64,000 bases of DNA. It comes from Methylacidimicrobium sp. AP8. Its GTDB lineage: Bacteria > Verrucomicrobiota > Verrucomicrobiia > Methylacidiphilales > Methylacidiphilaceae. Made by a program: the position numbers and the translations under genes. Numbering within the stretch: the stretch's first letter is position 1; each line of letters starts with the position of its first letter. Location of the stretch: contig NZ_LR797830.1 of the NCBI RefSeq assembly GCF_903064525.1, positions 1,736,001 through 1,800,000 on the forward strand, in the 5' to 3' direction. This document shows, one piece after another, positions 6,756-20,611 of this stretch. A model generated the notes under the pieces. That model did not search any database, had not been told where the DNA came from, and was given only the letters and a program-made list of their open reading frames with translations.

Positions 6756-7105
6756 AAGAGGTCGCCCGGTGGCTGATCATCTATGGGCTGGGACTTGTCG
6801 CTCTGGGGACCACCGGGTACCTCTCCAATCCGAAAAAGGCGAAGACCGCCCTCTACTCCGGGGGAGGCTTCGGAGTCATCACGATCTGCCTCGGCATCCT
6901 GACCCGCCGCGGGGTCTCCTGGGCCTTGCCGACAGCCTTTCTCCTGGTAGCGCTCTTTTCCCTTCTCTTAATATGGAGATCGACCGTCGTCTGGAAAGCG
7001 GTCGCGGCTGGAGAAAGAAGAAAGACGTTCGTGGGGGCGCTGCTTGCGCTGATGCTTCTTTTTTCGATCATCCTGCTCCCATACCTCTTTCTCGCTTGGC
7101 CTTGA
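6752..7105 (+). CDS. Small TMEM14-like integral membrane protein
   Basis: 117 residues with about four predicted membrane segments (roughly 6-22, 36-52, 57-75, 92-113). The stretch GYLSNPKKAKTALYSGGGFG resembles the loop-helix signature of the TMEM14/UPF0136 family, small membrane proteins of unknown bacterial function. The ATG overlaps the obgE stop (ATGA), so translation is probably coupled to obgE. The resemblance is by eye and the family assignment is tentative. The C-terminus meets the convergent yraN gene after 23 bases. Confidence 0.7.
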   Translation: MKEVARWLIIYGLGLVALGTTGYLSNPKKAKTALYSGGGFGVITICLGILTRRGVSWALPTAFLLVALFSLLLIWRSTVVWKAVAAGERRKTFVGALLALMLLFSIILLPYLFLAWP

Positions 7106-7128
7106 GCAAGTTCTCCGGAAAGCGCCGG

Positions 7129-7524
7129 TCAGAGGCTAGGCGGACCGAAGGCATCCGGCAGGTGCCGCAGCTGCGCTTTTCCCGGCGCCCGCACGAGCAC
7201 CTCGACAATGTCGAAGCGGTAGGTGATGTCGGCTCGTCCCAACTCTTCCAGATAGCTGTAGGCGGCCCGCACCAGGCGCGCCCGTTTTCCGGCATCGACC
7301 GCCTCAAACGGTTCTCCATGGTTCGTCGAGCTCCTGGCCTTCACCTCGACGAAGACGAGGATGCTCCCATCCCGGCAGACAAGATCGATCTCCCCTCCCC
7401 CGATCCGCACGTTGCGCAGCAAAACCCGGTAGCCCTTGCGGCGCAGGAACCGGGCGGCTTCCCGCTCGCCCCACTTTCCCAGGTCGAGCTCCCACGGCCG
7501 CGATCGTGGGAAGAGCCGGCGCAT
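7129..7524 (-). CDS. yraN: YraN family (UPF0102) nuclease-like protein
   Basis: 131-residue member of the YraN/UPF0102 family, which has a restriction-endonuclease-like fold and no settled function. The core is visible: GEREAARFLRRKGY, NVRIGGGEIDLV and LVFVEVKAR, carrying the E-D-EVK residues of the nuclease fold. I start at the ATG at 7524, two bases after the rnhB stop, because the upstream part of the open frame overlaps rnhB and has no family similarity. No Shine-Dalgarno is visible, so translation is likely coupled to rnhB. The rnhB-yraN pairing at the end of the rplS operon is common in bacteria. Confidence 0.9.
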   Translation of the reverse strand: MRRLFPRSRPWELDLGKWGEREAARFLRRKGYRVLLRNVRIGGGEIDLVCRDGSILVFVEVKARSSTNHGEPFEAVDAGKRARLVRAAYSYLEELGRADITYRFDIVEVLVRAPGKAQLRHLPDAFGPPSL

Positions 7525-7526
7525 GT

Positions 7527-8207
7527 TCAGGCGCCGCGGTCCCACGGGAGATCGGGCGACCAATCCGCGGAGAGCCGGCCGAGGAAGCTGCGCCGGTGAA
7601 TGGGAGTGGGGCCGTGACGCCGTAGCGCCTCCCAATGGCGCGCCGTCCCGTAGCCCTTGTGGCGGGCGAAGCCGAAGCGCGGGTGCTCCTGATCGATCTC
7701 GGCCATCCACTGGTCGCGCCTGACCTTAGCCAGGATCGAAGCCGCGGCGATGCAAGCGCACCGGCCGTCACCGCCGACGACCGTGAGGACAGGGACGTCC
7801 AGAGGCGGAGCCTCCCGCCCGTCCACCAGCACGATTCCCGGCCTCCGGGCCAAGGCGAGAACGGCTCGGGACATCGCGAGCATACTCGCCCCAAGGATGT
7901 TCCAGCGATCGATCTCCTCCACGGCGGCGAAACCGACCCCGTAGGCGACGCCCGGCAAGCCTACGATCCAGCGGTAGACTTCGGAACGGCACCGGGCATC
8001 GAGCCGCTTGGAATCGTCTAGCTTCGGATGGAGCCGGATCGCCGGAGGCAGCATCACCGCCGCGGCGACGACGGGGCCCGCCAGGGAGCCGCGGCCGACT
8101 TCGTCCACGCCCGCAGCGGGCTCCAAGCCTTGCCCGGCCAGCATCCGCTCGAGCCGCCGGTCTACTCCCCGAGCTCTCGATCGGGACGCCGGCGCCGCCT
8201 TCCGCAC
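7527..8207 (-). CDS. rnhB: Ribonuclease HII
   Basis: Type 2 RNase H that removes RNA primers and single ribonucleotides from DNA hybrids. The catalytic acids are in AGVDEVGRGSLAGP, and the family blocks DDSKRL, ASILAKVRRD and HKGYGT follow. The start is uncertain. A GTG at 8207 gives 226 residues and keeps the helix before GVDE (RRLERMLAGQG) intact, as in most homologues. The ATG at 8144 lies inside that helix and would give 205 residues. Neither has a clear Shine-Dalgarno. The much longer open frame upstream overlaps rplS and is not real. A second type 2 enzyme, RNase HIII, is encoded at 30.2 kb. Confidence 0.93.
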   Translation of the reverse strand: MRKAAPASRSRARGVDRRLERMLAGQGLEPAAGVDEVGRGSLAGPVVAAAVMLPPAIRLHPKLDDSKRLDARCRSEVYRWIVGLPGVAYGVGFAAVEEIDRWNILGASMLAMSRAVLALARRPGIVLVDGREAPPLDVPVLTVVGGDGRCACIAAASILAKVRRDQWMAEIDQEHPRFGFARHKGYGTARHWEALRRHGPTPIHRRSFLGRLSADWSPDLPWDRGA

Positions 8208-8301
8208 CGAATCAGTATGCGGTTCGCGCCGTTCCGGAGCAAGCCCGGAGCGGATGGGAGAAAAAGGAAAGAGGGAAGGGAAAGGCCGGAAGGCCCGCCG
8301 C

Positions 8302-8640
8302 CTATCTCCGCCCCAGGACGGCATCTTTGCCCTTCCTGCTCCGCAGATAGTAGAGCTTGGCCCGCCGCACCTTTGCGCTCCGTTCCACCTCGATCTTTTC
8401 GATCCAAGGGGAGTGGAGGCGATAGATGCGCTCGATTCCTTCCCCGTAGCTGAGCCGGCGAACGGTGAACGCAGCATGAATTCCCCGTCCCTTGCGAGCG
8501 ATCACGATCCCCGTAAAGACCTGAATGCGCTCCTTGTCGCCCTCGCGAATGCGCGAGTGCACCCGCACGGTATCGCCGACCGCAAAGCGGGGAAGCTCTT
8601 TCTTGAGCTGCTCCTGCTCAATCCGCTCGATCACGTTCAT
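8302..8640 (-). CDS. rplS: 50S ribosomal protein L19
   Basis: 112-residue protein at the 30S-50S interface. Recognised by the N-terminal [17 protein letters not shown] block, [14 protein letters not shown], and the C-terminal [16 protein letters not shown]. Its start overlaps the 3' end of trmD by 23 bases, suggesting coupled translation. The Shine-Dalgarno AAAGGAAAGAG lies inside trmD just before the ATG at 8640. Operon order ffh-rpsP-trmD-rplS; the usual rimM between rpsP and trmD is absent here. Confidence 0.97.
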
Positions 8641-9334
8641 GGCTCTTTCCTTTTTCTTTCTTCTCCCACAAATCCGCTCTCACACGCCGGGTCTTCTCCT
8701 CGGCCATGCGCAGGCGCCATCGCCGGATCGCTTCGTGATCCCCGGAGAGGAGGATTTCCGGCACCCCCAACCCACGGAAGAGGGCGGGCCGAGTATATTG
8801 CGGACCCTCAAGCAGAGCATCTTCGAACGATTCCTGCAATACCGATTCCGCATTTCCCAAGACGCCGGGAAGCAGACGAGCGACCGCGTCGATAATGGCG
8901 AGCGCGGCCACAGCTCCGTTGGCCACGACAAAATCTCCGATCGAAATCTCCTCATCGACCCAATGGTCGATCACCCGCTGATCGACCCCTTCGTAATGGC
9001 CGCAGACGAAAATCAGCCGGGAAGCGCGCGAAAACTCCCAGGCCATCGCTTGATCGAAGGTCCTTCCTCCCGGCGAAAGGAGCAGGACGCGCGCCTTCTC
9101 CGCCATCGCTTGGACCGCCTCGATGGCTTCGACCAGCGGCTCACACTTGAGCACCATTCCCGGTCCGCCGCCATAGGGTCGATCATCCACGGTCTTGTGC
9201 CGATCGCGGGCATAGTCGCGCAACTGGTGGACCCGAAGGACCAGCTGGCCGCTCCCGATCGCCCTTCCCAGTATGCTCTCCCGCGCCGCCGCCTCCAGGA
9301 GCGCGGGGAACAGGGTGATGACATCGATCCGCAC
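8618..9334 (-). CDS. trmD: tRNA (guanine-N1-)-methyltransferase
   Basis: SPOUT methyltransferase that makes m1G37 in tRNAs and prevents +1 frameshifts. The knot region is present: [38 protein letters not shown] and [13 protein letters not shown] place the start at GTG 9334 ([10 protein letters not shown], the conserved opening) because it is preceded by the strong GGGGGGGAGAG; an in-frame TTG/ATG extension reaching 9466 overlaps rpsP and has no family similarity. That gives 238 residues, the usual length. The gene overlaps rplS by 23 bases and lies 26 bases after rpsP. Confidence 0.96.
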
Positions 9335-9360
9335 GACTCTCCCCCCCCCGCGAGAAAGGG

Positions 9361-9639
9361 TCACGACGCCGCCGGGGAGTCTCCTTTCCGCGCGGTAGGT
9401 GCGCGCTGAGCCGTCTTCACGATGTGCGCAACGGTCTCGCTCATTTGCGCTCCCTGCTGTCTCCAAAATTCGATCCGGTCGAGCTTCACCTGAACCCCGC
9501 CTTCCTTCAGGAACGGATCATAGGTTCCGACCGCCTCCAGGAACTTGCCGTCCCGGGCTGCACGCCGGTCGGCGACGACAATGCGAAAAAAGGGCCGGTT
9601 CCTGCGCCCTTCTCTCCGTAAACGAACGACCACTGCCAT
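9361..9639 (-). CDS. rpsP: 30S ribosomal protein S16
   Basis: 92-residue small-subunit protein. It opens MAVVVRLRREGRRNRPFFRIVVAD, a close variant of the S16 consensus, followed by FLEAVGTYDP and the RIEFWRQQGAQMSETV helix. It lies between ffh and trmD, in the standard place. The ATG at 9639 has an AAGAGAGG Shine-Dalgarno. Confidence 0.97.
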   Translation of the reverse strand: MAVVVRLRREGRRNRPFFRIVVADRRAARDGKFLEAVGTYDPFLKEGGVQVKLDRIEFWRQQGAQMSETVAHIVKTAQRAPTARKGDSPAAS

Positions 9640-9663
9640 ATGCCTCTCTTTCTTCCTTGCTCT

Positions 9664-10992
9664 TCATCCGGATCGGGCGCCGGGGAAGCCGAATTTCGAC
9701 CAGCCCCTACCCTCTCCCTTGGAAAGTTTCCGCATCATCTTCCGCGTCGCATCGAACTTGCGCAACAGATCGTTGACATCGCTGACCTGCGTTCCGCTCC
9801 CGCGCGCGATCCGCAGCCGCCGCCGTCCGTTGAGGATCTCCGGCCGGCGGCGCTCTTCGGGCGTCATCGAGAGGATGATCGCCTCGATTCTCTTGATCCT
9901 CTTCTCGTCGACCTTGACCGCTTCCTTGCCGGGAAAGCCCGGCAGGAGCCCCAATATGCTCTCCAGAGGGCCCATCTTCTTCAGGAGCCGGAGCTGCGCG
10001 AGGAAATCCTGCAGGGTGAATTCGTTGCTTTTGAGCCGCTTGGCCACCTCTTCCATCGATTGGGCATCGATTTCCGACTGCACCCGATCGACCAGCGCCA
10101 CGATGTCTCCCATCCCCAGAAGCCTTCCGACGAATCGCTCGGGCACGAAGGGCTGCAACGCGTCCGGCTTTTCTCCCACGCCGAGGAACTTGATCGGGAT
10201 GCCGGTCACCTGCTGGATCGAGAGGGCCGCGCCACCCCGGGCGTCTCCGTCGGCTCTCGACAGAACCAAGCCGGTAATGGGCACTCGGGCGGCAAAGGCC
10301 TCCGCCACCCGTACCGCCGCCTGGCCGGTCGCCGCATCCACGACCAAGAGCGACTCCCCCGGCTCCCAAATCCCGGCCACGGCGGCCAGCTCCTCGAGCA
10401 GTACGCCATCGACATCCAGACGGCCGGCGGCATCAAAGATCAGGACATCGACTCTTTCCCGCTCGCCGCGCGCCCGCCCTTCTCGGACGACCGTCTCGAG
10501 CGCGGTTCCCTCCGGCCACGCATAGACGGGAACCTGGATCTGCTCGCCGAGCCGCTCGAGCTGCTCCCGGGCGGCGGGCCGGGTCAAATCTCCGGCGACC
10601 ATGGCAACTTTCTGCCGTTGCTTCCGAAACCAGAGCGCCAGCTTGGCGGCCGTCGTGGTCTTCCCCGAGCCGTTGAGCCCGCAGAGGAGAATGCGGAGGG
10701 GACGCTCGCGCCGGATCTCCCGCACGCCCTCGCCGAGAAGGCGCACCAGCTCGTCGTGGAAGATCTTGATGAACTGATCCCCGGGCCGAATGCTGGCCAG
10801 CACTTCCCGCCCGAGCGCCCGCTTCTGGATCTCCTCGCAGAGCCTCTTGGCCACCGGATAATGGACGTCCGCGGCGAGCAGGGCGAGGCGGATCTCGCGG
10901 AGCGCGTCGGCAACGTTTGACTCGGAAAGCTTCCCGTATCCCCGAAGGTTGCGGAAGACCGATTCGAGCTTTTTCTGGAGGAGTTCGAGCAT
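9664..10992 (-). CDS. ffh: Signal recognition particle protein Ffh (SRP54)
   Basis: GTPase of the signal recognition particle, targeting nascent membrane proteins to FtsY and SecYEG. 442 residues: N domain (1-95), G domain with GLNGSGKTT (about 105-113), DAAGRL, and a methionine-bearing M domain from about 300 with the FTLQDFLAQLRLLKKMGPL linker and SMTPEERR. Two G-domain motifs are slightly off consensus: DAAGRL for DTAGRL, and LSRADGDARGG where TKLDGDARGG is usual, so the guanine-specificity lysine of TKxD is replaced by arginine. The start lies 24 bases after the pafA stop, so the proteasome operon runs straight into the SRP operon. Confidence 0.97.
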   Translation of the reverse strand: MLELLQKKLESVFRNLRGYGKLSESNVADALREIRLALLAADVHYPVAKRLCEEIQKRALGREVLASIRPGDQFIKIFHDELVRLLGEGVREIRRERPLRILLCGLNGSGKTTTAAKLALWFRKQRQKVAMVAGDLTRPAAREQLERLGEQIQVPVYAWPEGTALETVVREGRARGERERVDVLIFDAAGRLDVDGVLLEELAAVAGIWEPGESLLVVDAATGQAAVRVAEAFAARVPITGLVLSRADGDARGGAALSIQQVTGIPIKFLGVGEKPDALQPFVPERFVGRLLGMGDIVALVDRVQSEIDAQSMEEVAKRLKSNEFTLQDFLAQLRLLKKMGPLESILGLLPGFPGKEAVKVDEKRIKRIEAIILSMTPEERRRPEILNGRRRLRIARGSGTQVSDVNDLLRKFDATRKMMRKLSKGEGRGWSKFGFPGARSG

Positions 10993-11016
10993 ACGAGGAG
11001 CCGGGCCGGCCGGGAG

Positions 11017-12426
11017 TTATGGCGAGCGGAGCTCCATGTCCTCGCAGAGGCCCGGCAGCTCCGCCTTAGGCGGTACCGTGCTCACGAAGGGATCTTCCAA
11101 GGAGTAGTAGCCGCTGTTGCCGACCTGCACATAGTCCCAGTCGATCACATACGAGATCTTGCCGGCGGCCACTCGTCGCATGAGCTGGCTGCGGGCATGG
11201 GCTCGGGTGTTCCGGGGAGCCTCCTGCTCCGGATCCCGGCTTCCGGGGCCGGAGCAGGCGAGCGCTTCGAGCGTCGGCTGGGGGATCAGGCCCGCCAACC
11301 TCCGCTTTTCGTCGAGGTTATGGTACTCGAGATCAAGGCTTTCCATCCACGGATCATCCCAGCCCACCCCCTCCCGGCTTCGAAAGAGCTCGAGCAGGTG
11401 ACGCTTCGTGATCCAGTCCACCCTGCCCAGGAGCGCCTCGGTGTCTTCGCGCAGACCCCGCAAGACCTCCTCCCACGCAAGACAAGTCCAGGCCGCGTCC
11501 CGATCCCCTTCCCTGCCCGACCGCGATACCGCCGCCAGGAAGTGCTCCAAAAGCTCCACGGCCGTCCACCTCCTGCCGTCGGAGAGCTCGATGAGCCACG
11601 GGCCGTCGGGGCAATGGCTGATCTGATGCATCGTGCGCACCGGATCGGCCAGGGCGACCTGGGGCATCCTGTCCTCCTCCAGAAGATCAAGAACGAGCGA
11701 GGTGCTGCCGACCTTCAGGGCCTGGCTGAACGGCAGCATGTTCGAGTCCCCGAGGAGGAGGTGGAATCGACGGAAGCGGCTGGGGTCCCCCAGCGGCTCG
11801 TCCCGCGCGTTGATCAGCGCCCGGTTGAACTGCACCCACTCGTAGATCTCGGTCTGGATGTAGTCGGCCCGTTGCATCACCTGGAACGGCAGAGCGCGCG
11901 TTCGGGCTCCCCGGTCGACGCCGCGCGGTACCATCACTGTGCCGACCCGACCCGCTCCGACCATCAGTCCCCGGACAGCCAGGAACGCGAGCAGGGAATC
12001 GACGTTACCCTGGGTGAGCGGCGCGTCGCGCTGGAGCAGATAGTTTTCGTGGCAGCCGAAGGTCGCACCCGTGTAGTGATCGATGTTATTCTTGATGAAG
12101 GAGGTCTCCCCAGCGATGCCCAAGTCGTTCAAGGCCCGTTGCAGCAGAATTTCCCCCGCCCGATCGGAGGCCAGCAGATCGCCGAGGAAGAGGCATTCGG
12201 CGGTGCAATACTCGATATGCCCCATGTCGAGATAGAGCCGCCCGCCGTTGAAAAGGAATCCGCCGTTGCCCGCCGGCTCGTCGTAATCCCGATCATGCAC
12301 ATCGATCAGGCCCACCTGCTTCCGGTAGAAGAGATAGTCCCGGACTCGCTCCGGCACCGGCATTCTGTCCTGGGATCGCTGCGATAGGCAGCCGTACTCG
12401 GTTTCCAGCCCCGCAATCCGACGCAT
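11017..12426 (-). CDS. pafA: Pup/UBact--protein ligase PafA
   Basis: Ligase that uses ATP to join the C-terminal glutamate of the Pup-like tag to lysines of target proteins. 469 residues of the glutamine-synthetase-like Pup ligase/deamidase fold: MRRIAGLETEYG, the acid-bearing LYLDMGHIEYCTAEC, FIKNNIDHYTGATFGCHENYL, INARDEPLGDPSRFRRFH and LLLGDSNMLPFSQALKVGS. I call it PafA rather than Dop because the long Dop loop present in its paralogue at 14.4 kb is missing and its N-terminus begins directly with the ligase core. AGGAG lies six bases before the ATG at 12426, three bases after prcA. Depletion or loss would be expected to stabilise tagged proteins; that is family knowledge. Confidence 0.93.
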   Translation of the reverse strand: MRRIAGLETEYGCLSQRSQDRMPVPERVRDYLFYRKQVGLIDVHDRDYDEPAGNGGFLFNGGRLYLDMGHIEYCTAECLFLGDLLASDRAGEILLQRALNDLGIAGETSFIKNNIDHYTGATFGCHENYLLQRDAPLTQGNVDSLLAFLAVRGLMVGAGRVGTVMVPRGVDRGARTRALPFQVMQRADYIQTEIYEWVQFNRALINARDEPLGDPSRFRRFHLLLGDSNMLPFSQALKVGSTSLVLDLLEEDRMPQVALADPVRTMHQISHCPDGPWLIELSDGRRWTAVELLEHFLAAVSRSGREGDRDAAWTCLAWEEVLRGLREDTEALLGRVDWITKRHLLELFRSREGVGWDDPWMESLDLEYHNLDEKRRLAGLIPQPTLEALACSGPGSRDPEQEAPRNTRAHARSQLMRRVAAGKISYVIDWDYVQVGNSGYYSLEDPFVSTVPPKAELPGLCEDMELRSP

Positions 12427-12429
12427 CTC

Positions 12430-13209
12430 CTACTCCTTTTGCCCTTCTTCCCATCCCAATTCCCAGGACTCGGGGACGAGAAACGCCGGGCCGCCGCCGG
12501 TGGCAGCCTCGCGGGAGAGCGCCCCGACTTCGAATCGGTCCGCGAGCTTGGGGGCGAACCAAGCACTCGGCGGTGTAAACTCTTCCCACGGAATCCGCTT
12601 CTCCCCATCCGCCTGGGCGGCCCAAGCGAGCACGGCCAGCGCGTGCCCGGCTAACTCCTTCCAGCTTTTGCCCGGGATAGGGGGAAATTTCCGGCTCTCC
12701 TCCCGCCACAACGTCCAGAGATCCTTCCGGGCCCCGAGCAGAGCGCCGCGCCGCAGCTGCTCGGAATCCACCCCGGCATAGCCGCCGTCGTATTCGATCA
12801 GCCATCCTTGATCCGCGGAGGCCGAGCTTCCCAACTCCACGAAAATGCCCCGGAACAGCAACGGCGCGGCGAAGATCTGCTCGAAGGCGTTTTTGAGCGC
12901 CCCGGCCAACCCATAGCTTACGATCCGCCGCGCGCTCACGTCGGCTCTCGATCGGGAGAAGCCCTCGACGTGCGCCGTCTCGATCGCGGTCTGGCGGATC
13001 TTTTCCAGATCGGCGGGATGGCCGATTCCCGCGAGCGCCAAATGGTCGTAGATCTCGAAGATCTTGGGAGTGGACGCCTTGCCGGCGACCAGCAGGATGC
13101 CCGGCTCCCCGCTCAGAGCGACGACGGGTGCGGCACCTCGCAGTTGATCCTCGATGTACTCGCGTCGATTCTGGACCGCTTCCAGCCAGCGATAAGGTTC
13201 CTCGATCAC
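12430..13209 (-). CDS. prcA: Proteasome subunit alpha
   Basis: Non-catalytic outer-ring subunit of the bacterial 20S proteasome, gating entry and docking the ATPase. 259 residues. The opening IEEPYRWLEAVQNRREYIEDQ corresponds to the PYxWAxxRxEYI gate segment of actinobacterial alpha subunits, and an IFEIYDHLALAGIG block follows as in KIxEIYDRIAFAGVG. The start is a GTG at 13209 preceded by GAGGGGAAGAGG; no ATG is available before the conserved N-terminus. It is separated from prcB by 188 bases, the largest gap in the operon, and followed three bases later by pafA. The C-terminal 60 residues are not similar to anything I recognise. Confidence 0.93.
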   Translation of the reverse strand: MIEEPYRWLEAVQNRREYIEDQLRGAAPVVALSGEPGILLVAGKASTPKIFEIYDHLALAGIGHPADLEKIRQTAIETAHVEGFSRSRADVSARRIVSYGLAGALKNAFEQIFAAPLLFRGIFVELGSSASADQGWLIEYDGGYAGVDSEQLRRGALLGARKDLWTLWREESRKFPPIPGKSWKELAGHALAVLAWAAQADGEKRIPWEEFTPPSAWFAPKLADRFEVGALSREAATGGGPAFLVPESWELGWEEGQKE

Positions 13210-13329
13210 GCTCAGCCTCTTCCCCTCGCACCCGCTGCCGCTTGTTCCGGCAAGGCGAGGAATCCTCCAAGACCCCTCGTCCGCAGGGACACGGAAAGAG
13301 TAAGCTTATCACGCCCGCGACGTAGTGCA

Positions 13330-13341
13330 ATGCAATTGCAT
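13330..13341. repeat. Perfect 12-base palindrome between prcB and prcA
   Basis: ATGCAATTGCAT is a perfect palindrome in the 188-base gap between prcB and prcA, the only sizeable break inside the proteasome operon. On the minus strand it supplies TTGCAT, and TGATAA follows 18 bases later (about 13306-13311), so a weak internal promoter for prcA-pafA is possible. I see no gene in the gap. Confidence 0.3.
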
Positions 13342-13397
13342 CCCCTGCCGCCCGGTTCCGGGGATGCTCTCGCCCGAGCGCGGCCCGGCGAAAGCAT

Positions 13398-14192
13398 CTA
13401 GGTCGTCGGAAGAAGACGGCCGAGCTGCTCTTCCGGAATCGATTTGACCCCCGACCGCCGGACCAATTTGACCTGCGGATAGATTCGCGTCCGCCGATCA
13501 ATGCCTCCCGTGGCGGTGTCGGATTCCGCCGCTACATCCAAAAGCTGGAGCGAGAGAGCGATCGCCTCTTCTTCCCCGCGCTCGGCCGGAGGCGATCCGC
13601 TCCACCGGTTCAGATATTGCAAAACAGCGCGCGCCGCCGGCGATCCCGAACCCGAAACGGCGAAATCGACCGCCTCGAATTGCGCTCCCAAGGCATCATA
13701 AAAGAAGATCTTCGGTCCCCCTTTGCCCAGAGGATCGACCAGGGCGAGGATCGGAACCACGACCCCGACTCCTTGGAGGGTCATCGCGAGGTTCTCCTTG
13801 AGAAGCTTGCCGACCATTCTTACCTTCGCGTCGACCGACAAGGGTTGAAGCTGGCTCCGCCGGTAGTACTCGAAGGAATGCTGAAGGACGCGCGCGATTT
13901 CGTAGGCGATCGCCGGAGCCCCGGCGATCGCCATCACCGTCGACCGGTCGATCTCGATCACCTTGTCGGCTCGATCATGAATGACCGTGTGCCCCATCGT
14001 GGCCCGCCGGTCTCCGGCAACGATCACCCCGTCCCGATAATGAAAGCTGAGGACGGTGGTCGCTTCCGGCATCGGTACCGCCGCTGCCCCCGGCGCCGTG
14101 CCTTTCCCTTCCGGGAAAAGAAGGTTCCTCGCACGGAGGACGGCGAGGAAATCCCCGGTCAGAGCCCCGGCGGAAACGCCGACGGTCTCCAC
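13398..14192 (-). CDS. prcB: Proteasome subunit beta (catalytic)
   Basis: N-terminal-nucleophile protease forming the inner rings of the 20S proteasome. 264 residues with a propeptide of about 44: cleavage before TTVLSFHYRDG would expose Thr45 as the nucleophile. The partner residues of the family are in place: Asp61 in VAGDRRAT (Asp17 of the mature chain) and Lys77 in RADKVIEI (Lys33). The conserved SGSGSPAARAVL and ESDTATGG segments near the C-terminus also match. The start is a GTG at 14192, four bases after the ubact stop, with GGAG nine bases before it. The tag and protease genes are therefore almost certainly cotranslated from one mRNA. Confidence 0.95.
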   Translation of the reverse strand: METVGVSAGALTGDFLAVLRARNLLFPEGKGTAPGAAAVPMPEATTVLSFHYRDGVIVAGDRRATMGHTVIHDRADKVIEIDRSTVMAIAGAPAIAYEIARVLQHSFEYYRRSQLQPLSVDAKVRMVGKLLKENLAMTLQGVGVVVPILALVDPLGKGGPKIFFYDALGAQFEAVDFAVSGSGSPAARAVLQYLNRWSGSPPAERGEEEAIALSLQLLDVAAESDTATGGIDRRTRIYPQVKLVRRSGVKSIPEEQLGRLLPTT

Positions 14193-14196
14193 GACC

Positions 14197-14379
14197 TTAT
14201 TCTCCGGTACGCTGTCGATAGCGCTTCGCCTGATCGGGATCGACCTTGCGCATCCGCTTGAGGATTTCTTCGGTGTTCGGCCGATCGATTCTCGGCACCC
14301 TGGGCCCCGGCCCCTCTCCTCCCGGACCGGAACCGGGACCGACCGGATGTGTCTTTTGGACTTGTTCTGGCATCAGCAT
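14197..14379 (-). CDS. ubact: UBact, Pup-like protein tag ending in Gly-Glu
   Basis: Small unstructured protein that is joined by PafA to lysines and read by the ARC ATPase. 60 residues: a Gly/Pro-rich first half, then RPNTEEILKRMRKVDPDQ and AKRYRQRTGE at the very end. This matches the UBact group of Pup homologues described in Gram-negative phyla. The last residue is already Glu, so no deamidation step is needed before ligation, unlike actinobacterial Pup ending in Gln. I chose ATG 14379, with AGGAG four bases upstream; a second ATG two codons later (14373) is equally possible. The gene lies 26 bases after dop and four bases before prcB. Confidence 0.93.
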   Translation of the reverse strand: MLMPEQVQKTHPVGPGSGPGGEGPGPRVPRIDRPNTEEILKRMRKVDPDQAKRYRQRTGE

Positions 14380-14405
14380 GGCTCTCCTGGTGGGTTTACG
14401 AAACT

Positions 14406-15956
14406 CTAACCGCCGATCGGCTCCAGGTGCAATTCCTCGATCATATCGGAAACGGCTTGCGCCCGGTCGATCACCTCGCAATAGCGCTCCAGGTCGACAC
14501 CCGGAAAGGCCGAGGACAGCTCGACCCGATAAGTCTGCCCCTTCCAGCGAAAGGCGATGTAGTCCCACTGAACGTTGACCAGGTCTTTGGCGAACTTTTG
14601 AATGCACTTGCCCCGGATATACGCGCGGGATGCCGTCGGCGGCTGCTGGATCGCCCGATAGATATCCTCCTCCCGGGAAATTCGGCTGATCTGGCCCGCG
14701 GATTCCAGCGCGTAATAGAGCCCGCGCTCCCTATCCATCAGATGGTATTCGAGATCGACACTCTGGAGCCACGGGTCATCCCAGGAGAGCTTCTGCTCCT
14801 CGCGGAAGGTCTCCAGAAGGGAGCGCTTCGCCACCCAATCGAGCCGGTCCCGCAAGGCATCGGGATCCTTCTGCAACAGTTCGATGGTCTCTTTCCAGCC
14901 CTTCCAGACCGCTCGTTTCTCCGGGTGGTCGAGATCGACGTAGCGGCCGACCCAATCCGCGTAGTCGTTCTGCAGCTCGGTCGCGGTAGTCTTCCCCGCA
15001 TGCGCGAGGCTGATCTCCCAACGGTTGGTCGGATCCCGGGAGATGCTCCGGTGCGCGTGGAGCGGGTCGAGCAGAAAAAAGCGGCGTGGCGCACGCTCGT
15101 ACTGCAGCGCCTCCAGCACCAGTGCCGTGGTCCCTACCTTCAGCCAGGTGGCGTATTCCGAAAGGTTGGAGTCACCCACGATCACGTGGAACCGCCGGTA
15201 GAGCTTGGGGTTCGCGTGGGGCTCGTCCCGCGTGTTGATGAGGGGCCGCCGGTTCATGGTGTCGATACCGACAAGCTCGGTGAAAAAGTCCGCGCGCTGG
15301 GAAATCTGGAATCCTCCGCCCATCCCCAGGTCTTCCTTCTCCCAGCCGAGCTTCCCCGCGCCGCCGAAGATCTGCCGGGTGACCAGGAAGCCCATCATCC
15401 CCTCCACGATTCGATCCCAGGGGATCATTCGCGGGATCAGGTAATTCTCGTGGCAGCCGTAGCTGTGTCCTGCGAAGTCGCTGTTGTTCTTATAAAGGCA
15501 CACCGTATGATTTCGCCGCCGGCTGGCCGCCCGGGCGCACTCCTCCAGAATCCGCTCCCCCGCCTTGTCCTGCGCCACCAGCTCCAGAAGGGTGGAGCAT
15601 TCGGGTGTGGAGTATTCGGGATGCGTATGATCGTTGTAGAAGCGCGCCCCGTTGCGTAGGACGAAGTCGCTCTTGATCTCCTCGAAGCTGTAGGGCCGCT
15701 GGCGATCCTGGGAAAAAAAGTTCGCCTCGTCCCCGTCCTGGCGCAGCTCCTTCGCCCGGAAGCCACGGGCGTCGCGATGGGGATCCTCCCGGGTGTAATC
15801 CCAGAGATTCGGGCTGCCGAGTTGCGCAGCGGCCCGGACGAGGTGAATCGACTCCTCGACCACGTCGATTTCGGCGTTTTCCCGAACCGCGATCCCGAAC
15901 TCGGTCTCCAATCCGAAATAGATCGGCCAGGCTGGAATGGGTCTCTGCTTGTCCAT
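14406..15956 (-). CDS. dop: Depupylase Dop (UBact-removing enzyme)
   Basis: Homologue of PafA that hydrolyses the bond between tag and target lysine (and deamidates Pup where the tag ends in Gln). 516 residues. Dop hallmarks: LWDYTREDPHRDARGFRA and a long insertion rich in charged residues (about 70-105, the Dop loop region), then YNDHTHPEYSTPEC with the key acid, LYKNNSDFAGHSYGCHENYL, LINTRDEPHANPK and FHVIVGDSNLSEYATWLKVGT. Start ATG 15956 (MDKQRPIPAW) has GGAGG 13 bases upstream; a TTG at 15998 would overlap the ATPase gene. Because the tag here ends in Glu, its main role is presumably depupylation and tag recycling. Confidence 0.94.
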   Translation of the reverse strand: MDKQRPIPAWPIYFGLETEFGIAVRENAEIDVVEESIHLVRAAAQLGSPNLWDYTREDPHRDARGFRAKELRQDGDEANFFSQDRQRPYSFEEIKSDFVLRNGARFYNDHTHPEYSTPECSTLLELVAQDKAGERILEECARAASRRRNHTVCLYKNNSDFAGHSYGCHENYLIPRMIPWDRIVEGMMGFLVTRQIFGGAGKLGWEKEDLGMGGGFQISQRADFFTELVGIDTMNRRPLINTRDEPHANPKLYRRFHVIVGDSNLSEYATWLKVGTTALVLEALQYERAPRRFFLLDPLHAHRSISRDPTNRWEISLAHAGKTTATELQNDYADWVGRYVDLDHPEKRAVWKGWKETIELLQKDPDALRDRLDWVAKRSLLETFREEQKLSWDDPWLQSVDLEYHLMDRERGLYYALESAGQISRISREEDIYRAIQQPPTASRAYIRGKCIQKFAKDLVNVQWDYIAFRWKGQTYRVELSSAFPGVDLERYCEVIDRAQAVSDMIEELHLEPIGG

Positions 15957-15994
15957 GGCGTCGCGCTTTCCTCCGGTATCTAATTCCCGAATCT

Positions 15995-17650
15995 TCAAAC
16001 GACCTGACGCACCGTCGCTTCCTCCCGCCGCATCACCGGCGCCAGCCGAACCACGTTCTGGGGATCACAGTCCACCAGCTTCAACCAGTCTTCCGTGATG
16101 TCCGACGGCGGGAAGATGTCATTCTCAAGATACTCGATATCGAGCGCTGTCAACAGGTCCTCCAACCGCAAGCCGTAATCGGACGGATCGGCGATCGCCC
16201 GCTTGATCGCCAACTCCTTGGCCCGCTCGACAATCGACGCGATGATCGCTCCGCTGATCAGGTCGCCCCGATAGAGATATTCCTTTCTCCCGCTCCGGTA
16301 GGTGATCTCCAGGAACCGGTTCCGCTCGACCCGGGCGAACTGCGCCTCTAGCACCCCTTCGATCAGGATTTCGATCGCCTTTTGCCTATCGTTGCCCGCC
16401 TGCCTCAGGAGATCCGGAGAATAGGGCAGATCCGTATCCAGATAGATGCGGTAGATCTCTGCCGAGCCGGCGCGGTCGGGTCGATCCACCTTGATCTTCC
16501 GGTCGATCCGGCCGGGCCGCAGGATGGCGGGATCGATCAGGTCCGCCCGGTTGGACGCCAGGATGATCACCACCTCGCGCATCGACTCAATGCCGTCCAT
16601 CTCAGCGCAGAACATGGGAACAAGCGTGTTGAGGATGCCGTGGTAGCGGCCCGCGCGCCGGGTTCCCAGGATGGATTCCGCCTCGTCGATGAAAAGGAAC
16701 GGGAGGTACCCTTCCCGTGCCAGCTCCCGCGCCTGCTCGAAGAGCTCGCGGACCTGCCGCTCCGATTCGCCGACCCACATGTTCAGGATCTCCGGTCCCT
16801 TGACATGGAGGAAATACTCCTTCCGGTCCTCGCCGGTTTGTTCTCGGAGCCGACGCGTGAGATTGTACGCCGTGGCCTTCCCTAGGAGCGTCTTCCCGCA
16901 CCCCGGCGGTCCGTGGAGCAGAAATCCCTTGGGAACATGGTGATGGTACTTGGCGAAGAGGTCCGCATGGAGGAAAGGCAGCTCCACCGCGTCGCGGACG
17001 GCGCTGACCGCCCGTTTCTGCCCTCCGACCTTTTCCCACGGAAGCTCCGGAACCCGATCGAGCAGACGGTACTTGGTCTTCGAGGTCGCCACGACCTCGA
17101 CGGCGACCCGGGAGGAGGAGTCGACCCGAACTTCGAGCCCGGCCTTGATCCGCTCTTTAGCCAGCGGCGTGGAACGGACCACGACGAAGCTTCCGCCGAC
17201 CCCTTCATGGCCCACGCGCAGCCGGTTGTCCGGCAGCACGTCGATCACCTTCACCACAGGGCCCGATACATCGAAGCCGAGATCGCCCACGACGACATAG
17301 GCCTCGTTGAGCAGCACCCGGGTTCCAACCATGAGGGTCTCATGGGCCAACCGGGGGTCGATCAGGCAATAGAATTCGGTTCCGCCCTGGATCACGAGCG
17401 CGATCTCTTTCTTGGGCAGGGCGAGGAGGGTGCCCACCCGGTTCGCCGGGGAGGAAAGTTTCTCGACCGCGTCGTTGAGCTTTTCCAAAGCCTGGCGGGC
17501 CTGCTCGTTGGTCTCCTCGAGCTCCGCCACCCGGCGGCGGAGATAGAAGAACGCCTCCCGCGAAACCGCGTCAAAAGCGAGCCTTTGGCCGATCAAGTCG
17601 ACGATCTGAAGAGCGGAGGCCGACTCCAAGCTTTCGAAAGACATAGGCAT
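15995..17650 (-). CDS. arc: Proteasome-associated ATPase (ARC/Mpa)
   Basis: AAA+ ring that recognises the tag through its coiled coil, unfolds the substrate and feeds the proteasome. 551 residues: N-terminal coiled coil (about 30-66), two OB folds (about 70-190), Walker A GPPGCGKT (about 247-254), Walker B LFIDEAE (about 319-325) and the arginine-finger region RPGRIDRK. I start at ATG 17650, with GGAG five bases before it; an in-frame ATG at 17683 has a poor ribosome site and lies only one or two bases after the predicted transcription start. The chain ends ATVRQVV: the GQYL/HbYX tail that docks actinobacterial Mpa to the alpha ring is not there. pyrF ends about 90 bases upstream. Confidence 0.94.
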   Translation of the reverse strand: MPMSFESLESASALQIVDLIGQRLAFDAVSREAFFYLRRRVAELEETNEQARQALEKLNDAVEKLSSPANRVGTLLALPKKEIALVIQGGTEFYCLIDPRLAHETLMVGTRVLLNEAYVVVGDLGFDVSGPVVKVIDVLPDNRLRVGHEGVGGSFVVVRSTPLAKERIKAGLEVRVDSSSRVAVEVVATSKTKYRLLDRVPELPWEKVGGQKRAVSAVRDAVELPFLHADLFAKYHHHVPKGFLLHGPPGCGKTLLGKATAYNLTRRLREQTGEDRKEYFLHVKGPEILNMWVGESERQVRELFEQARELAREGYLPFLFIDEAESILGTRRAGRYHGILNTLVPMFCAEMDGIESMREVVIILASNRADLIDPAILRPGRIDRKIKVDRPDRAGSAEIYRIYLDTDLPYSPDLLRQAGNDRQKAIEILIEGVLEAQFARVERNRFLEITYRSGRKEYLYRGDLISGAIIASIVERAKELAIKRAIADPSDYGLRLEDLLTALDIEYLENDIFPPSDITEDWLKLVDCDPQNVVRLAPVMRREEATVRQVV

Positions 17651-17690
17651 GTCTGCTCCGAATCCTTTTTCCTTTCTCGCCATGCCTCAC

Positions 17691-17719
17691 ACAATAGGCG
17701 CATATGCTTCCCGCTGCAA
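17691..17719 (-). promoter_or_regulatory. Possible promoter of the proteasome operon
   Basis: On the minus strand TTGCAG (17714-17719) and TATTGT (17691-17696) are 17 bases apart, in the gap between pyrF and the ATPase gene. Matches are three of six and four of six, so the call is moderate. Transcription would begin near 17684, leaving a leader of about 34 bases before the ATG at 17650. Confidence 0.4.
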
Positions 17720-17739
17720 ACCGGCCCCCTAGGCGCTCC

Positions 17740-18438
17740 CTAAACGGGGCCATTTCCCTCCCCAAGCAAATTCCGCACCAACTCGACCGGGTCCGCCGAT
17801 TCCAGCACCGGCCGGCCGACGACGATATGGGTCGCCCCGAGGGCGAACGCCTCACGCGGGGAGACTGTGCGACGCTGGTCGTCCGCCTCCTGCCGCGCGA
17901 GCCGGATTCCCGGGGTGACGATCAGCTCCGGCCGGATGCCCGCCTTCTGCAAGAAAAGGAGGTCGCGCGCCGAGCAGACGATGCCGGGAACACCGTTCTC
18001 GGCCGCCAGCGCGGCCAGAGAGCAGACGCGCCGGCCGATGCTTCCGGGCAAGCCGATTTCGGAAAGCTCTTCTTCGGTGAAGCTCGTCAGCACCGTCACC
18101 GCAAGAAGCCGGGTGGCGCTGCCTGCGGCGGCTGCGGCGGCGGCCGCCAGCATCCGCCTTCCGCCGAGAGCGTGGACGGTCAGCAGCCCGACCTCCATCT
18201 GAACTCCGGCCTCGACCGCCTTACCCACCGTCGCCGGAATATCGTGGAGCTTTAGATCGAGAAAGACCTGCGCTCCCAATGCACGGAGCTCCGCCACGAC
18301 GGCGGGCCCCCCGCGCAAGAAAAGTTGACTTCCTACCTTGAACCAACTGACATACTCCCGCAGCCGGAGCGCCAGGGAAAGAGCCGCCTCCACCTCGAAG
18401 AGATCCAAGGCCACGATGAGCCGATCCGCTAAGGGCAT
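17740..18438 (-). CDS. pyrF: Orotidine 5'-phosphate decarboxylase
   Basis: Last step of UMP synthesis, removing CO2 from OMP. 232 residues of the group I family: IVALDLFE (substrate aspartate), the catalytic FLDLKLHDIPATV with Asp-Lys-Asp, TVHALGG, and the phosphate-binding TPGIRL and HIVVGRPV near the end. The ATG at 18438 has an excellent GGAGGTGG Shine-Dalgarno seven bases upstream; a GTG at 18447 is part of that site and is not the start. The start codon overlaps that of the divergent ispE. It is the first gene of the minus-strand run leading into the proteasome operon. Confidence 0.95.
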   Translation of the reverse strand: MPLADRLIVALDLFEVEAALSLALRLREYVSWFKVGSQLFLRGGPAVVAELRALGAQVFLDLKLHDIPATVGKAVEAGVQMEVGLLTVHALGGRRMLAAAAAAAAGSATRLLAVTVLTSFTEEELSEIGLPGSIGRRVCSLAALAAENGVPGIVCSARDLLFLQKAGIRPELIVTPGIRLARQEADDQRRTVSPREAFALGATHIVVGRPVLESADPVELVRNLLGEGNGPV

Positions 18439-19315
18439 GAAGGCCACCTCCGGGGGAATTCAACTCTTCGCACCGGCGAAAATCAACCTCGACCTGAGGA
18501 TCCTCGGCCGTCGATCGGACGGCTTTCACGAGATCTCGACGCGGATGGCGCCGATCTCGCTGGGCGATCGCTTGCGCGTGATTCCTCGCTCCGACGGGGA
18601 GCTGGCCTTCCACTGCGACGATCCGCGGATCCCGGGGGGGGAGGAGAACTTGGTCCTGCGGGCCGCCCGCCTGTTCGCCGCGTCGTTCGGCCTCCCTTGC
18701 GGCTTCACCTTCCTGCTGGAAAAACGGCTTCCGTCCGGAGCCGGACTCGGAGGGGGCAGCAGTGATGCGGCCGCTACCCTTCTGGCTCTCCGCAGCCTGC
18801 TGGGGTATCCCTCGTCGGTGAATGCGCTGATGCCCGCGGCGGCCTCCTTGGGAAGCGACGTTCCCTTCTTCCTCGTCCAAAGGTCCGCGCTCTGCCGCGG
18901 CCGGGGAGAAATCGTCCACCCCGAGCCATGGCCCGGCCCCAGGCACGGCCTGGTCCTCTTCCCCGGTTTTTCCGTGCCGACTCCGTGGGCCTATCACGCT
19001 TACGCCCGCAACCCCCGCCCGGGCGAGGAACGGGGCGCGCCGCCCTGGGGCCCTGTCCGGAACGATCTGGAGCCCGCCGTCTTCCGGAAGTATTTGTGGA
19101 TCGCCGAGGCCCAGAAATGGCTCCGGAATGAGGCGAAAGCCGCCCTCGCGATGATGAGCGGCAGCGGAAGCTCGGTCTTCGGTCTCTGGGATCGCGCTCC
19201 CGATCCCCATCTGCTGGCTCGGGCTCGGCTCTTTTTCGGTCCGGAAGCTTGGATCGAACCTTTTTCCATCCTAGACGGCGGGACCGCGCCGCCCCTCCGC
19301 GGCGACTCGTTTTGA
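18437..19315 (+). CDS. ispE: 4-diphosphocytidyl-2-C-methyl-D-erythritol kinase
   Basis: GHMP-family kinase of the MEP isoprenoid pathway. 292 residues. It starts MKATSGGIQLFAPAKINLDL, where APAKINL is the family opening, followed by the ATP loop PSGAGLGGGSSDAAATLL (about 99-116) and the C-terminal MSGSGSSVFG. The ATG at 18437 shares two bases with the pyrF ATG on the other strand (sequence CATG), so each gene's promoter must lie inside the other's coding region. Only a weak AAGGG precedes the ATG; upstream in-frame codons run antisense to pyrF and lack family similarity. Confidence 0.93.
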   Translation: MKATSGGIQLFAPAKINLDLRILGRRSDGFHEISTRMAPISLGDRLRVIPRSDGELAFHCDDPRIPGGEENLVLRAARLFAASFGLPCGFTFLLEKRLPSGAGLGGGSSDAAATLLALRSLLGYPSSVNALMPAAASLGSDVPFFLVQRSALCRGRGEIVHPEPWPGPRHGLVLFPGFSVPTPWAYHAYARNPRPGEERGAPPWGPVRNDLEPAVFRKYLWIAEAQKWLRNEAKAALAMMSGSGSSVFGLWDRAPDPHLLARARLFFGPEAWIEPFSILDGGTAPPLRGDSF

Positions 19316-19435
19316 CTGCAGCCGTCCAAGTTTTCCTTAAGGAGCAATCCGGAAGCTGGACTCGCCCGGAAAAAGAACTAGTATAAGGATACCAACGAGC
19401 TACCGTCCAGCGAATTATCTTACTTTTTCTTGCAA

Positions 19436-20611
19436 ATGCCCCACTATACTTACCTGATCATCGGCGGAGGGATGACGGCCGATGCGGCCGTTCGCGGAAT
19501 CCGGGAAATCGATCCGAACGGGCCCATAGGGCTGCTCACCGCGGAGCCCGAGCTCCCCTACAATCGGCCGCCCCTCTCCAAGGGGCTCTGGAAGGGGGAG
19601 GCTCTCGATTCAATCTGGTGCCGCACGCCCGAGGCGGGAGTCGTCTTTCACCGCAGCTGCACCGCCCGCTCCCTGGACCTTTCGTCCAAGACGGTCACCG
19701 CAGAAAACGGGACGACCTTCTCCTTCGATAAGCTGCTGCTGGCAACAGGAGGCGACGCACGCCGCCTCCCCACGCCGAGCACGAAAATCCTCTATTATCG
19801 TACGCTGGCCGATTACCGGAAGCTCCGTGCCTGGAGCGAAGCCGAGGAGAGAATTTGCGTGCTCGGCGGAGGCTTCATCGGCTCGGAAATCGCGGCCGCC
19901 TTGGCCCTCAACGGCAAGCGCGTGACCCTCCTTTTTGCGGAGGCGGGAATCGGCGGCAGGATCTTCCCCGAAGCGCTATCTCTTTTCCTCAATGAATACT
20001 ACCGCAAGAAGGGTGTCGAGGTGCTCCCCCGGCAGACGGTCTCCGCGATCGAGGAGCAACAAGGCCTCCTGCACATCCATCTCGGCCAAGGGAGCCTTTC
20101 GGTGGGAGCCCTGGTCGCGGGCATCGGCATATCGCCGAACGTAGGACTGGCCAAGGATGCCCGCCTCGAGGTCGATAACGGCATCGTGGTCGACGAGTAT
20201 CTCCGCACTGGTCACGCCGACGTCTACGCGGCGGGAGACGTAGCCGCATTTTTCCAACCCGCCCTCGGGCAGCGGCTCCGCTTCGAGCACGAGGACAACG
20301 CGCGCCAGATGGGCCTCGTGGCCGGCCGCAACATGGCCGGCCATGCGGCGAAATACGATCACATCCCTTTCTTCTATTCGGATCTTTTCGATTTCGGCTA
20401 CGAGGCCGTCGGCCTGCTCGATCTCCGGCTCGAGATCTTCTGCGACTGGAAGGAAGAGTTTCACACGGGGGTCGTGTATTACCTGGACCGCCGGCGGGTC
20501 CGCGGAGTGCTCCTCTGGAACGTCTGGGGACAGGTCGATGCAGCTCGGGCGCTTCTCGCCGAGCCCGGGCCGTTCCAGCCCGCCGACCTCCGCGGGCGGA
20601 TCCCGTTCTAG
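19436..20611 (+). CDS. AIF-like FAD-dependent NAD(P)H oxidoreductase
   Basis: 391-residue two-dinucleotide-binding flavoprotein. The FAD-binding YLIIGGGMTADAAVR is at about 6-20, the NAD(P)H-binding VLGGGFIGSEIAAAL at about 143-157, and the second FAD motif VYAAGDVAAF at about 264-273. PYNRPPLSKGLW and the C-terminal FFYSDLFDFGYEAVG resemble the ferredoxin-reductase/apoptosis-inducing-factor group, which reduces ferredoxins, quinones or iron-sulfur partners; the partner here is unknown. No redox-active CxxC is visible. The ATG at 19436 has no clear Shine-Dalgarno; an in-frame TTG lies two codons earlier. The 120 bases upstream carry a TATAAG at about 19383 that could serve as a -10 box. Confidence 0.85.
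   Translation: MPHYTYLIIGGGMTADAAVRGIREIDPNGPIGLLTAEPELPYNRPPLSKGLWKGEALDSIWCRTPEAGVVFHRSCTARSLDLSSKTVTAENGTTFSFDKLLLATGGDARRLPTPSTKILYYRTLADYRKLRAWSEAEERICVLGGGFIGSEIAAALALNGKRVTLLFAEAGIGGRIFPEALSLFLNEYYRKKGVEVLPRQTVSAIEEQQGLLHIHLGQGSLSVGALVAGIGISPNVGLAKDARLEVDNGIVVDEYLRTGHADVYAAGDVAAFFQPALGQRLRFEHEDNARQMGLVAGRNMAGHAAKYDHIPFFYSDLFDFGYEAVGLLDLRLEIFCDWKEEFHTGVVYYLDRRRVRGVLLWNVWGQVDAARALLAEPGPFQPADLRGRIPF

Follow-up and report, generated by a model that had tools for sequence, protein, structure and literature searches.

An intact UBact-proteasome gene set lies directly upstream of ffh-rpsP-trmD-rplS in the 64-kb stretch of DNA analysed here (hereafter the window), which is part of a complete 2.30-Mb genome. 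Methylacidimicrobium species and strain LP2A are its closest named relatives, which marks the bacterium, an acid-loving methane oxidiser, as a Methylacidimicrobium. Comparison with related genomes indicates that the set probably sits between two old neighbours, pyrF and ffh, and that it would be read as two overlapping transcription units, starting from the promoter-like elements P1 and P2. The order in the direction of transcription, on the minus strand, is pyrF, arc, dop, UBact, prcB, prcA, pafA, ffh, rpsP, trmD, rplS, rnhB and yraN. The features discussed below are, in window coordinates:

17740..18447, minus strand: pyrF (orotidine-5'-phosphate decarboxylase), the upstream neighbour (Pfam OMPdecase, 170 bits; NCBIfam PRK00230, 241 bits)
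17691..17720, minus strand: P1, promoter-like, TTTGC-N19-TATTGT, 7 nt before the ATPase ATG
15995..17683, minus strand: arc, Mpa-type proteasomal AAA+ ATPase (TIGR03689; OB_N, OB_C and AAA domains)
14406..15956, minus strand: dop, depupylase/deamidase homologue (Pup_ligase, 527 bits; TIGR03688, 448 bits)
14197..14379, minus strand: UBact tag, with a second ATG at 14373 (PF20513 and NF033388; alignment of relatives)
13398..14192, minus strand: prcB, 20S proteasome beta subunit with propeptide (Proteasome, 90 bits; TIGR03690, 159 bits)
13210..13397, minus strand: prcB-prcA intergenic gap, 188 bp
13303..13335, minus strand: P2, promoter-like (TTGCATTGnA-N14-TGrTArGCT), located 93-96 nt upstream of prcA
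12430..13209, minus strand: prcA, 20S proteasome alpha subunit (TIGR03691, 52 bits; 1q5q alpha)
11017..12426, minus strand: pafA, tag ligase homologue (Pup_ligase, 373 bits; TIGR03686, 275 bits)
9664..10992, minus strand: ffh, SRP GTPase (TIGR00959, 519 bits, above the cut-off of 473)
9361..9639, minus strand: rpsP, ribosomal protein S16 (position, translation, and ffh-rpsP-trmD-rplS order kept in relatives)
8618..9333, minus strand: trmD, tRNA m1G methyltransferase (position, translation, order kept in relatives)
8302..8640, minus strand: rplS, ribosomal protein L19 (position, translation, order kept in relatives)

All six proteins of the proteasome system are recognised by family models from Pfam and NCBIfam, which bears out the earlier identification of the locus as a UBact-proteasome system of a described type, including the positions and strand then given for the alpha subunit and the ligase. 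The tag exceeds the cut-offs of both its models (PF20513, 79 bits vs 27.8; NF033388, 85.1 bits vs 35) and, as first described, its C-terminus (...RYRQRTGE) carries Gly-Glu, one of the two endings, Gly-Glu and Gly-Gln, that define such tags; since it ends in Glu, no deamidation is required. The Glu end is not a distinguishing trait, since tags ending in Gln occur in the third genus of Methylacidiphilaceae and in many other relatives, several order mates among them: in 100 loci, some of which represent the same genome fetched twice, we counted 42 Glu and 58 Gln. Both PafA-family enzymes possess the active-site motifs GLETE (GhExE) and GCHENYL (HEN/HxN), as given in PMC2588565. The Dop copy matches structure 4b0r (E 1e-113), with which its Dop-loop stretch can be aligned, while the PafA copy matches 4b0t (E 5e-57), is 33 residues shorter than Dop between GLETE and the NGxRxY motif, and lacks the Dop-loop. 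Both miss their NCBIfam equivalog cut-offs (Dop 448 vs 492 bits, PafA 275 vs 551 bits), yet they are clear homologues.

The remaining components also score under the respective NCBIfam equivalog cut-offs. PrcB, whose mature Thr1 corresponds to residue 45, aligns with the actinobacterial beta subunit 2h6j (E 5e-28), with the catalytic Thr1, Asp17 and Lys33 in register. PrcA matches TIGR03691 weakly and with its N-terminal half alone (52 bits vs a cut-off of 139), but it aligns with the alpha subunit of 1q5q (E 1e-8) over the pocket-lysine region, where K of KIFEIYD stands opposite K of KVSELYD, and the N-terminus EEPYRWLEA..NRREYIEDQ is kept. The ATPase (TIGR03689, 454.6 bits vs 504.75) aligns with Mpa 7px9 over residues 48-550 (E 4e-104), the coiled-coil stretch included, and shows the Mpa/ARC arrangement of coiled coil, double OB and AAA+ domains. 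Conservation of its N-terminus in relatives places the start at 17683 and not at 17650, the border of the piece first described. Mpa docks via a C-terminal GQYL motif (PMC12288473, PMC8223512); the ATPase encoded in the window ends in RQVV, without a GQYL or HbYX tail. A penultimate Tyr is found in none of 52 complete ATPase tails from UBact loci of Verrucomicrobiota, Armatimonadota and Latescibacterota (some loci being duplicates), which end e.g. in VV, II, IV or TI. This suggests that UBact-type ATPases may reach the 20S particle via a tail that lacks the mycobacterial tyrosine.

The weak, N-terminal match of the alpha subunit and the missing GQYL tail would be expected if the set were decayed or inactive. 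Against this speak the intact reading frames of all genes, the retained PrcB Thr1/Asp17/Lys33, PafA/Dop GhExE and HEN motifs and PrcA N-terminus, and the retention of the set throughout the family, and we regard decay as very improbable. The system is real, intact and of an already described kind, and its gene neighbourhood is informative.

In the preliminary description these genes formed one run, separated by a few bases each and read on directly into the SRP/ribosome operon. Strand and order are as stated, and pyrF belongs to the run as well. The gaps amount to 56 bases for pyrF-arc, 38 for arc-dop, 26-32 for dop-UBact, 4 for UBact-prcB, 3 for prcA-pafA and 24 for pafA-ffh, in agreement with the three values originally given (38, 4 and 24). 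The 188 bases between prcB and prcA, however, do not fit this picture; this gap and the conserved promoter-like block within it had been overlooked, and they predict two units instead of one. The gap is long (163-339 bases) in all 12 family genomes where it can be measured. An ORF at 13212-13397 was rejected as a gene, as it matches no family in Pfam or NCBIfam. A strong hairpin after prcB in the window was dismissed as a terminator, because it has no U-tract and is not conserved; a conserved fold of the prcA leader RNA was likewise dismissed (weak consensus of -9.4; five of six leaders no stabler than their shuffles). An Rfam search of 7000-19500 returned one sub-threshold match and nothing else. 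At the upstream border, ispE and pyrF are divergent (18338-18447) and their starts almost coincide, so that any pyrF promoter must sit inside the ispE coding sequence. At the other end, rimM is absent from the rpsP-trmD interval (9334-9360), a departure from the order common in other bacteria.

The case for P1 and P2 is one of conservation and not of consensus, since a generic promoter consensus scan of the window did not report either, and both match the sigma-70 consensus moderately. P1 recurs with unchanged spacing in 12 of the 13 family genomes; these belong to two genera that otherwise show little resemblance in their intergenic DNA. Transcription from P1 would produce an ATPase mRNA with no leader, or almost none. 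Within the prcB-prcA gap, which otherwise aligns poorly in six Methylacidimicrobium species, no other gapless block of equal length is as well conserved as P2. Invariant columns make up 20 of its 33 positions, against a rate of 26% at the 4-fold sites in genes nearby (binomial 2.6e-5), and 16 of the 19 positions of its core (1.6e-7), figures that ignore relatedness and refer to a block chosen after viewing the alignment. The element resembles an extended -10 preceded by a -35 at a spacing of 16 bases. Its distance to prcA is constant (93-96 nt in the six genomes), while the sequence 5' of it differs in length by about 150 bp, and it occurs as a single copy per genome, always at prcB-prcA; the seventh Methylacidimicrobium genome is interrupted there by a contig break. 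The other two genera, although their prcB-prcA gap is long too, gave no match to P2 in its Methylacidimicrobium form. From these patterns we infer that P1 and P2 are promoters.

A single long operon, extending from P1 (or from a point 5' of pyrF) to rplS, with P2 as a regulatory or structural site, would account for the shared strand of every gene, for the remaining gaps being mostly 3-60 bp, and for the lack of a minus-strand U-tract terminator following prcB. It accounts poorly for the confinement of the 163-339 bp gap, with its conserved -35/-10-like block, to prcB-prcA, and for the fixed 93-96 nt leader after P2 in Methylacidimicrobium, and we consider it unlikely. According to the two-unit reading, which we prefer, P1 would drive arc-dop-UBact-prcB, and P2, from inside the prcB-prcA gap, would drive prcA-pafA-ffh-rpsP-trmD-rplS, with some read-through from P1 into the P2 unit. 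As the latter unit begins at prcA, the SRP/ribosome transcript would open with the genes for the alpha subunit and the ligase. To judge by homology, PafA would link UBact, through its C-terminal glutamate, to lysines on target proteins and Dop would take the tag off again, while the ARC-type ATPase would unfold tagged proteins for degradation in the PrcA/PrcB barrel. It is conceivable, if doubtful, that the set is divided in function: P1 would supply ATPase, depupylase, tag and beta subunit, and the ligase and the alpha subunit, the latter forming the gate, would be produced from P2 along with the SRP and ribosomal proteins. Tagging capacity would then track ribosome production apart from tag supply. 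The two positioned start predictions bear on whether a common transcript covers the proteasome and SRP/ribosome genes in Methylacidiphilaceae, a family with cultivated members.

The junction with ffh was checked in the neighbouring gene order of family genomes, as the preliminary description had recommended. In each of the 13 Methylacidiphilaceae genomes searched, from three genera, pafA adjoins ffh; pyrF adjoins arc in every genome whose contig spans both, and the order of the genes is identical in every family genome where contigs permit reading, which argues that the run is not due to chance. The pafA-ffh gap measures 24-27 bp in Methylacidimicrobium and 114 bp in the third genus (L035); in the second genus it is 7-13 bp, or the genes overlap by 7 bp. 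Overall, 12 of the 13 genomes have a short gap or an overlap. Signs of a terminator and of a separate promoter, which together had been named as a refutation, were sought in the 24-bp gap of the window, and neither kind of site was found. Read-through from pafA into ffh is therefore plausible, as claimed, but from a unit that P2 predicts to be separate.

The proposed hint of co-regulation with protein synthesis fares worse. About 25 kb of the window is collinear with the second genus, divergently read genes included; against this background, which is local, i.e. within the 64-kb window, the pafA-ffh adjacency is no better conserved than the genes around it and provides no special evidence of co-regulation. 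The link is also absent from family f9 of the same order, in which UBact is present. Together with the 114-bp gap in L035, these observations would suit a neighbourhood created by one ancestral rearrangement, in which ffh-rpsP-trmD-rplS is driven from within pafA and the link is without consequence for expression. A gap of 7-27 bp or an overlap leaves no space for a promoter outside the pafA coding sequence; a promoter inside pafA may exist and is compatible with the conservation data. The retention of such a short gap or overlap in 12 of 13 genomes, and the absence of a promoter-like match at the end of pafA in the window, argue against a neighbourhood without consequence, which we hold to be quite improbable. 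A regulatory purpose of the link and co-regulation of the neighbours remain putative, and the signs of them are weak.

UBact was detected in 25 of 60 relatives searched, and the best 80 loci by similarity in a genome scan, a ranking biased towards the phylum, are mostly from Verrucomicrobiota; for this phylum the rarity ascribed to such systems outside Actinobacteria was overstated. Within the order, UBact is absent from the sampled families f2-f8. In one f8 genome that lacks it (G024; L159), ispE and pyrF are located roughly 3.5 kb 5' of ffh, separated from it by a helicase-like gene and others, an arrangement not seen in its congener G019. Because ispE-pyrF is near ffh in this UBact-less genome, the single instance suggests that the UBact set ended up between older neighbours, pyrF and ffh, in the family ancestor. 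A recent transfer was considered and rejected, as Dop and PafA group with order mates and then with other Verrucomicrobiota; the tree is small and without Actinobacteria, so an older transfer is still compatible with it. Elsewhere the set is dispersed: in genus g13 of f9 (G025, G042, G046, G048, G050, G052) the ligase gene is on a separate contig from the UBact cluster, and in G033, from another f9 genus, dop is about 590 kb from the tag. Ten loci of Verrucomicrobiota type (L055, L104, L106, L108, L110, L112, L117-L119, L121) contain UBact and prcB without dop, pafA or ATPase genes nearby that tblastn with the window proteins could detect, and represent either split clusters or divergent genes.

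Two further observations concern the SRP side. Ffh of the window has the GTPase motifs DAAGR and LSRADGDARGG, where the second genus has DTAGR and LSKFDGDARGG; Arg replaces Lys in the guanine-binding motif in every Methylacidimicrobium genome read. Nearly all genomes of genus g6 in family f4 of the same order (G015, G023, G028, G032, G047, G056 and others; L172-L176) are without an Ffh/FtsY match, one having a marginal, partial match. Small SRP RNA was found in none of six tested, SecY in all six and TrmD in five of five, and the trmD loci contain rpsP and rplS without ffh. The genomes are drafts, one of them 96% complete; this genus may be without a signal recognition particle.

Proteasome subunits of Methylacidiphilum infernorum V4 (Minf_1279, Minf_1281, Minf_1284) were reported in 2008 (PMC2474590), and a Pup-like gene in Methylacidiphilum was noted in the same year (PMC2588565); the available parts of these two papers make no mention of the ffh link. 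UBact was named in 2017 (Lehmann et al. 2017, cited in PMC12751074). Our search of open-access texts found no study of UBact in Verrucomicrobiota and no text on the ffh link, P1 or P2. The V4 cluster belongs to the same family and has the same gene set in a different species; in genomes of the second genus the gene order is the same, pyrF and ffh included. With the UBact system of Gram-negatives (Lehmann et al. 2017) the locus shares the tag family PF20513/NF033388, two PafA-family enzymes, an ARC-type ATPase and the order arc-dop-UBact-prcB-prcA-pafA, which recurs in many other Verrucomicrobiota loci; it differs in having ffh-rpsP-trmD-rplS directly after, and a long prcB-prcA gap with a promoter-like block. 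The Pup-proteasome of Actinobacteria (M. tuberculosis, C. glutamicum) possesses homologous ligase, depupylase, ATPase, alpha and beta subunits, and both tags end in Gly-Glu or Gly-Gln, but they belong to different model families, and in the window the ATPase tail is without GQYL and pafA is followed by ffh instead of pafBC.
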